From assembly GCA_025352325.1 (NCBI GenBank), contig JANXTR010000026.1, positions 1 to 64,000 of the forward strand: a DNA stretch of 64,000 nucleotides, written 5' to 3'. This document shows, piece by piece, positions 6,290 to 50,645 of the stretch. The position numbers were made by a program, and so were the translations under genes. The notes below the pieces were generated by a model, which had not been told where the DNA came from, searched no databases, and saw nothing but the letters and a program-made list of their open reading frames with translations. Positions within the stretch are counted from its first letter, which is position 1. The number at the start of each line of letters is the position of its first letter. Source of the DNA: Microbacteriaceae bacterium. GTDB lineage: Bacteria > Actinomycetota > Actinomycetes > Actinomycetales > Microbacteriaceae.

Positions 6290-6335
6290 CGATACTCAAG
6301 ACGGCCGGTACCAAGTACTCAGGCCGACAACCGCG

Positions 6336-6401
6336 GGCCGGGACGGCCCTCGGGGAGTGTCGTCGCGGAGGCCAGAAATGGCCTCCGCCTTGAGACGACA
6401 C
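6336..6401 (+). repeat. AGAAAT stem-loop element, copy A
   Basis: GGCCGGGACGGCC (6336-6348) is followed by a perfect 9-bp stem GCGGAGGCC (6365-6373), loop AGAAAT (6374-6379), GGCCTCCGC (6380-6388), nested in an outer 8-bp stem GTGTCGTC (6357-6364) with GACGACAC (6394-6401). Related elements lie at 50528-50580 and, inverted, at 19467-19490. It may double as a terminator for the sugar operon. Confidence 0.7.
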
Positions 6402-6408
6402 GCCCGGG

Positions 6409-6437
6409 TTGCAGCAATGGCAACCGTGTGGCAAACT
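6409..6437 (+). promoter_or_regulatory. candidate promoter of the S10 operon
   Basis: TTGCAG (6409-6414), 17 bp, CAAACT (6432-6437), leaving a leader of about 315 nt. The -10 is weak by consensus but the position fits. Confidence 0.4.
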
Positions 6438-6759
6438 CGTCTAGTTCAACATTCTGTGCGTTCGCGTGCGGATCACTGTCAGAGCAGTGCACAACCGAAA
6501 GTGCTGTGCCTCGCCGAGTTGCTGAAACTCAGGCGGGGGACCGGTTCTTGTCTCAGGTTGGGCGGCGGGCAGAAGAACACAGTTTCACTCGAATCCGAAG
6601 ACCTCCAGGGTCGAGGTATGTCGTGCGCCCCGAAGGGGCTGCGACACGCCCGACCACGTAGGTCGGATGGATTGACAGAAGAACAGCGGTGCGCGAGCAG
6701 AGATGTGTCGCGCGGGTACGGGTCCGAGAAGGATGCCGTGCGGAAATAGGAGGAAAGAC

Positions 6760-19347: not shown

Positions 19348-19464
19348 ATGAAGGTCAAGCCCAGCGTGAAGCCGATCTGCGAGCACTGCAAGGTGATCCG
19401 CCGCAACGGTGTCGTCATGGTGATCTGCAAGAACAACCCCAGGCACAAGCAGCGTCAAGGCTGA
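19348..19464 (+). CDS. rpmJ: 50S ribosomal protein L36 (bL36), zinc-binding form
   Basis: 38 residues from ATG 19348, preceded by GAGAAGAAG. The zinc ribbon is intact: CEHC, then CKNNPRH (Cys11, Cys14, Cys27, His32). This is the C+ form that depends on zinc; a zinc-free paralogue elsewhere in the genome is possible but not seen here. Confidence 0.97.
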
Positions 19465-19466
19465 CA

Positions 19467-19490
19467 GCGGGGGCCATTTCTGGCCGCCGC
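19467..19490 (-). repeat. AGAAAT stem-loop element, copy C (inverted)
   Basis: On the minus strand this reads GCGGCGGCC-AGAAAT-GGCCCCCGC, a 9-bp stem with one mismatch and the same loop as 6365-6388. It begins 3 bp after the rpmJ stop, within the rpmJ-rpsM gap. GGCCGGG also precedes it on the minus strand, as in the other copies, but closer. Confidence 0.6.
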
Positions 19491-19646
19491 CGTGACCCGG
19501 CCGCCCGTCTCAAGCGGGCCTCGAGCAAATAACTCAATACGAAATCCGCATCACCAACATCCGTCGTGAGGCGGTGACACCCCGGGTCGGGAGGCTCGCG
19601 CACCGGTGATGCCCCACCCTCCCGAATTTCTCAAGGAGAAGCCACC

Positions 19647-50517: not shown

Positions 50518-50527
50518 GGGGCCCGGC

Positions 50528-50580
50528 GGCCGGGACGGCCACCGGCGCTGGCGCCGCCGCGAGACCAGAAATGGCCTCGC
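50528..50580 (+). repeat. AGAAAT stem-loop element, copy B
   Basis: GGCCGGGACGGCC (50528-50540), 26 nt, then loop AGAAAT (50567-50572) in the stem GCGAG-A-CC / GG-C-CTCGC (50559-50580, one mismatch). Same 13-mer, spacing and loop as 6336-6388. It lies 10 bp after the guaB3 stop. Confidence 0.65.
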
Positions 50581-50645
50581 TCCACGCGGAGCGCGCGCTG
50601 GTTCCGCCTGGGGCGTACCGCCAGGTCGGGTCCGATGACCGCCGG

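Follow-up and report, generated by a model that had tools for sequence, protein, structure and literature searches.

Copies of a two-hairpin element in the window

Analysis of the window, i.e., the whole stretch of 64,000 nucleotides studied here, revealed three copies of a palindromic element, which lie on the rpsJ promoter, behind guaB3, and between rpmJ and rpsM. For this region, the initial annotation had described two sites sharing a 13-mer, a spacer of 25 to 26 nt, and a stem closing an AGAAAT loop, as well as an inverted relative at a third site. The 13-mer GGCCGGGACGGCC was confirmed as repeated, with exact matches in the window at 6336-6348 and 50528-50540 only. When up to two mismatches were allowed, 14 matches were found in the window compared to 12 expected, and such loose matches are therefore uninformative. 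CAGAAATG occurs three times in the window, at 6373 and 50566 on the forward strand and at 19475 on the reverse strand (0.63 occurrences expected; three were reached in 1 of 100 shuffles). Genome-wide, GCCAGAAATGGC was found 8 times and its reversed control 0 times. The spacer does separate two hairpins, P1 with the 13-mer and P3 with the AGAAAT loop, but within it lies the 5' arm of P2, a third helix that forms a long outer stem. The true elements therefore extend over 6331-6406, 50523-50599, and 19449-19524.

In the whole genome, CAGAAATG is present at 26 sites, of which 13 displayed the full plan by eye. These 13 copies were combined in alignment A2 and used to generate model R1, which recognized the three copies in the window. 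Their features are as follows.

6331 to 6406, forward strand: copy A, on the rpsJ promoter; R1 score, 68.7 bits; same-site copies in G011 and G044
6331 to 6353, forward strand: copy A, hairpin P1; arms 6331-6339 and 6345-6353, loop GGGAC
6354 to 6364, forward strand: copy A, P2 5' arm; 10 of 11 positions pair with the rpsJ promoter block at 6394-6404
6365 to 6388, forward strand: copy A, hairpin P3; arms 6365-6373 and 6380-6388, cap AGAAAT at 6374-6379 (A[GAAA]U)
6389 to 6393, forward strand: copy A, bulge CTTGA, separating P3 from the P2 3' arm
6394 to 6404, forward strand: copy A, P2 3' arm; host rpsJ promoter block, GCGACACGCCC-like, present in 7 element-free relatives
19449 to 19524, reverse strand: copy C, between rpmJ and rpsM; R1 score, 50.5 bits; P1 and P2 decayed
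19449 to 19464, reverse strand: copy C, P2 3' arm; final codons and stop of rpmJ (L36 gene)
50523 to 50599, forward strand: copy B, 5 nt past the guaB3 stop; R1 score, 55.2 bits

All three copies had been placed just downstream of genes. This position holds for copies B and C, but copy A is located 155 nt past an ABC permease gene, at the promoter of rpsJ. Folded as single-stranded DNA, copy A reached -33 kcal/mol (z -6.8). The final 16 nt of rpmJ fall within copy C; better-paired copies occupy this site in G011, G186, and G010, and none was found there in G001. At the site of copy B, alignment of the flanks showed no element in G011 and G001.

The family was studied with 94 distinct copies taken from G000, G001, G011, and G018 and from the loci of a pattern scan; this set omits the matches in G002, G010, and G013 and includes 25 of the 31 in G011. 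The element is a unit of ~78 nt (26 codons) consisting of P1 (9 bp, loop GRGAC), the P2 5' arm (~11 to 12 nt), P3 (9 bp with an A[GAAA]U cap), a bulge of ~5 nt, and the P2 3' arm, with P2 enclosing P3. The AGAAAT loop, previously called invariant, is constant within the window, but family-wide it is present in 74 of the 94 copies, next to CGAAAG (3 copies), CGGAAG (1 copy), and CGACAG (1 copy). Judged from these sequences, a GNRA-like tetraloop with a closing pair that varies is the best reading of the cap. The first pair of P3 is G-C in 92/94 copies. Most of the family consists of main-type copies (n = 76), which carry their own P2 rather than a host arm and have CGTC before P3 in 60 cases and TCCA after P3 in 66. 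The 13 copies with a host arm have CGTC at that place in 4 cases and TCCA in none. The split into main-type and other copies follows a simple pattern, and at least 4 of the 18 "other" copies (L112, L118, L119, and L153) look main-type. Partial and tandem duplications were observed at L285, L290, L105, and L298, with some breaks near loops; they fit polymerase slippage at hairpins. On contig C1 of G152 (399320-399559), three matches are arranged in tandem with a period of 81 nt (27 codons).

Distribution and insertion sites

The initial annotation had proposed a search for further copies. At E values up to 1, R1 matched 17 places in the genome containing the window and more in relatives, with compensatory stem changes. 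Matches were obtained in 7 of 30 relatives, this genome counted among them, and their number ranged from 0 to 31. Among the 31 matches of G011, three pairs are separated by a constant ~3.45 Mb and probably represent one stretch counted twice. Two regions of this genome, at 46-53 kb and 3499-3506 kb (L156 and L157), contain the same two elements at near-identical spacing, and the third pair has the same offset; an assembly overlap or a large duplication may underlie this arrangement. In the genome containing the window, ettA has a second match just past its opposite end, which is divergent (L121:3800-3878, 38.6 bits).

With stricter filters, which lose weak matches, the element was detected in 39 of 199 genomes and 23 of 78 genera of a Microbacteriaceae sample. 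With such filters, a sample of the order yielded 1 match among 198 genomes, namely, the genome containing the window, and none among the other 197. The pattern scan, run on named genomes, returned 34 stretches, and each of them bears the title of a Microbacteriaceae genus, a Microbacteriaceae bacterium, or a Micrococcales/Actinomycetota MAG (three genera of this list were checked in the taxonomy). The presence of the element is patchy even inside a genus. Among plasmid and phage records, 26 and 9 matches, respectively, were found at E values up to 1; none spans 80% of the 281-nt query including its flanks, and the better ones fell on the flanks. Searches of the open-licence literature on actinobacterial and Microbacteriaceae palindromic repeats returned no description of such a family.

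Genes around the copies were assigned with our own codon-score gene finder. By this assignment, 22 of the 94 copies lie in genes, 21 between convergent, 41 between codirectional, and 6 between divergent neighbors, and 4 have one unknown flank. Many copies adjoin stop codons, in both orientations, and the end of the copy frequently supplies part of a TAG stop. Some are positioned between neighbors on the same strand, as in rpmJ-rpsM, after sucC, and after lysC. At tRNA-Ile and tRNA-Ala genes, copies were also seen to stop at the 5' end of the gene or to run a few bases into it (L130:2001-2315; L094:6439-6587; L278), the tRNA-Ala site being occupied at three loci in different genomes. By eye, a pair of copies in opposite orientation at L144:1677-2126 seems to split a thioesterase-like frame.

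Seventeen of the in-gene copies are located more than 30 nt from both gene ends, and 13 of these are exactly 78 nt long. Read in antisense, in-gene copies encode approximately the peptide xALELGAKAISGLRRDASADGRLGRR; four stretches of element-encoded peptides are not mentioned in the open-licence literature searched. According to Pfam/NCBIfam, the genes with in-frame insertions encode MutM/Fpg (in the genome containing the window), HrpA, RlmN, a DnaE2-type error-prone polymerase, an Lhr-like helicase, a TsaD-family/GNAT fusion, which we read as TsaB-RimI, and an enoyl-CoA hydratase family protein, which we read as MenB. The family domains of these host proteins flank or span the insertion sites. 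In HrpA, copies were found in four genomes (L132, L138, L091, and L099) at differing linker positions.

Comparison with relatives was performed for 15 of the 17 copies of the genome containing the window (L126 and the second copy in L121 were outside this test), and both flanks could be aligned at 12 sites, all but L116, L119, and L122. At 12/12 of these sites, the element was absent, by eye, from at least one relative. The insertions in menB and hrpA are located between conserved blocks. In element-free menB genes, these blocks are separated by 18 to 42 nt in 7 of 9 genomes and by 189 nt in G010, the spacing in G002 being distorted by its contig. The corresponding spacing in hrpA is 30 to 39 nt in G000, G002, G003, and G011, 53 nt in G010, and 75 nt in G016; G009 and G013 could not be projected. 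The mutM gene of G002 looks like it contains a decayed copy, and no copy was found in mutM of G001, G011, and G018. A count of possible target duplications gave 2 matching nt at 10/93 sites (5.7 expected) and 3 to 4 nt at 4 sites (~2 expected), which is no clear excess.

Covariation of the stems and host-matched arms

The covariation pointed out in the initial annotation proved to be real and strong. In the 13 copies from the genome containing the window, 13 of 26 pairs vary on both sides (shuffled mean, 5.4), and in 62 distinct copies from G000, G001, G011, and G018, 25 of 26 pairs do (shuffled mean, 12.8); neither value was reached in 500 shuffles, which ignore the relatedness of copies. In the 62-copy alignment, which had been fitted to the structure, 92.4% of the cells were paired compared to 24 to 49% with partners slid.

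Covariation of this strength, together with the GNRA-like cap and its variable closing pair, the placement at 3' ends, and the persistence of the rpsJ, rpmJ, and lysC copies across genera with paired arms, would suit a structured RNA under selection. Such an RNA would be a hairpin in the mRNA, between cistrons or at the 3' end, that protects the transcript upstream of it or serves as a protein-binding site, and the need to fold would drive the covariation. An RNA under selection is generally expected to tolerate G.U above A.C on the transcribed strand; a tRNA positive control for this expectation failed (10 distinct candidates, poor register). In P1 and P3 of the 94 distinct copies, 1,594 of 1,670 cells (~95%) are Watson-Crick pairs, 16 are G.T, and 22 are A.C. 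By intergenic class, G.T and A.C numbered 2 and 3 (+E+), 6 and 8 (-E-), 4 and 4 (+E-), and 1 and 0 (-E+); within genes, they numbered 1 and 4 in sense copies and 2 and 3 in antisense copies. When the copies were sorted according to the strand that is probably transcribed, with +E+ and in-gene sense copies set against -E- and in-gene antisense copies, 14 mismatches were of the wobble type and 15 of the opposite type. G.T is thus about as frequent as A.C, which favors pairing that is kept in DNA and not in RNA. The occurrence in both orientations, the copies inside genes, and the patchy presence within a genus likewise speak against a structured RNA, and this explanation is unlikely. Pairing is probably maintained at the DNA level, and the low number of mismatches could also mean that many copies are young. 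In the old copies at rpsJ and rpmJ, which persist across genera with paired stems, an mRNA hairpin may be under selection.

Some old copies, including copies A and C of the window, have one P2 arm that consists of host DNA; where it is not decayed, the opposite arm is the inverted copy of this host part. The host parts include the rpmJ end, the guaA end, and the rpsJ promoter. At rpsJ, the P2 3' arm is formed by GCGACACGCCC, a block immediately upstream of the promoter that is also present in seven element-free relatives (G001, G002, G003, G009, G010, G013, and G018), and the 5' arm matches it in each of the copies at this site (G000, G011, and G044). In the region corresponding to window positions 6394-6440, a conserved block, GCGACACGCCCG, directly precedes a TTGCA-like element in the rpsJ promoters of eight other Microbacteriaceae. 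The rpmJ arm consists of the last codons, KQRQG-stop, which were found in all 90 genomes examined (of 190 with a match); the element is present in 3 of these 90 (G000, G010, and G186) and in a fourth carrier, G011, outside the sample. The guaA arm is the IEWE-stop end, which is also the terminus of solved GMP synthases from other organisms. At lysC, the final codons differ across three genera (GGAACGGGCCGC, GGAACCGGACGC, and GGAACCGGGCGC; candidate host arms), and every 5' arm is an exact inverted match of the local final codons; L295 was identified as aspartate kinase, L298 reads like aspartate kinase, and L296 was assigned by its flank only. Similar host arms were found at the ends of ettA, where the host part is kept in element-free G002, and icd, where it is kept in element-free G001 and 8 of 11 arm positions pair. 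Further candidates are sucC and typA.

In 14 host-arm copies, from which decayed copy C was excluded, pairing with the own arm averaged 10.6 of 11 compared to 5.2 with arms from other sites, in an 11-nt register that was picked by us. With swapped arms at the best of 9 registers, the mean was 6.3 and 2 of 164 combinations reached at least 10, compared to 13 of 14 own pairs. The stems at rpmJ contain a single wobble pair in G186 and a single mismatch in G010; given these imperfections and the 8 of 11 pairs at icd, re-matching is neither instant nor complete.

A host-matched arm may arise by template switching onto the host flank or by selection for the hairpin. Template switching has been reported to create stems and compensatory changes and to maintain hairpins (PMC8794818). 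The likeness lies in reverse-complement copies of nearby DNA that make or mend stems; the difference is that the hairpins described in that source belong to RNA genes, whereas a dispersed mobile palindrome is considered here. Template switching at the palindrome would re-match the paired arms, and covariation would therefore arise without RNA selection. The chances that this process is the main source of the host-matched arm are about even. In a more doubtful reading, P2 is rebuilt at each site: insertion would bring P1, P3, and the bulge, and fold-back synthesis on P3 would add an inverted copy of ~11 nt of the adjacent host gene. The element would then end in host sequence and track changes in the host codons.

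Relation to known repeats and mode of spread

REPs have been described near 3' ends and inside genes for DnaE2 and RNA helicases, and their CGTC superfamily as one without a transposase, with single hairpins of 8 to 9 bp that almost always start with A-T and with a terminal tag (PMC3733652). The word "actinobacteria" is absent from the main text of that source, in which untagged REP-like families are nevertheless noted for M. tuberculosis. The element could belong to this superfamily with P3 as the REP unit. It resembles CGTC REPs in forming 3'-end palindromes, in entering genes, including those for DnaE2 and RNA helicases, and in the lack of a linked transposase (PMC3733652), judged for the element from a Y1/RAYT search in carriers (6 of 7 without) and from the commonest neighbor families. 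The CGTC and TCCA motifs flank P3 in most main-type copies. The picture for a CCA tail is mixed, with TCCA in most main-type copies and in no host-arm copy, and away from the end of the element. However, the CGTC motif lies within P2 and is not terminal: CGTC or its complement occurs within 5 nt of an end in 3/94 copies. P3 starts with G-C and not with A-T, host-arm copies mostly lack CGTC and always lack TCCA, and the unit comprises two hairpins, with P1 as a part of it and P2 enclosing P3. Membership in the CGTC superfamily is therefore quite improbable.

GTAG REPs with their RAYT transposases share the 3'-end placement and element ends that give part of a TAG stop. No GTAG was found within 8 nt of an end in any of the 94 copies. 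A Y1/RAYT gene (PF01797) was detected in 1 of 30 genomes (G013, which carries 2 copies of the element), and 6 of 7 element carriers differ from RAYT systems in being without one. In a scan of neighboring genes, which covered 109 of 135 listed proteins with 193 Pfam and 80 PHROG families in all, no transposase was found among the 25 commonest Pfam or PHROG families. As a candidate for an autonomous version, the regions enclosed by inverted copies (L096 and L103) were considered and rejected; they are without similarity and look like ordinary genes.

Rickettsia palindromic elements are palindromes inserted in frame into protein genes; they come from an unrelated host phylum and have a different architecture. 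In-frame insertion in protein genes is the feature shared with the Microbacteriaceae element; Rickettsia palindromic elements are also mentioned in PMC3733652.

Two further proposals of the initial annotation were not sustained. A function as special, possibly bidirectional, intrinsic terminators would agree with 21 convergent compared to 6 divergent sites, but no terminator-like site was found at copy A, same-strand genes follow the copies at rpmJ-rpsM, sucC, and lysC, and other copies lie inside genes, which makes this function very improbable. The element can hardly represent trans-acting small RNA genes: the fold and loops are compact and conserved, but there was no Rfam match in the window at gathering score, the subthreshold Rfam hits of one copy were at chance level (best, Pab19 with 20.1 bits compared to 55 needed), copies occur in both orientations, in coding sequence, and overlapping coding ends and tRNA starts, G.T does not exceed A.C, and match numbers vary from 0 to 31 among relatives.

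The third proposal, a REP-like replicated palindrome, agrees with the many copies, the empty sites in relatives, the 3'-end placement, and the intragenic copies. Copies are dispersed to unrelated sites, survive mainly next to stop codons or in frame, and have mostly Watson-Crick stems and, in part, host-matched arms. They very probably constitute a mobile palindromic DNA family. As a whole explanation, the stem-loop in the window likely belongs to a palindromic mobile DNA element of Microbacteriaceae that is non-autonomous and behaves like REPs and Rickettsia palindromic elements. The element would move as a DNA hairpin or cruciform via an enzyme acting in trans.

The element adds a two-hairpin palindromic family from Actinomycetota to repeats that have been described chiefly from Proteobacteria (PMC3733652), and its in-frame insertions hit conserved enzymes. 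Strong compensatory change, which is usually taken as proof of a functional RNA, occurs here in what appears to be mobile DNA, and counts of G.T versus A.C mismatches are suggested as a simple check for such covariation. The host-matched arms provide natural material for the question of whether template switching builds and maintains hairpins.
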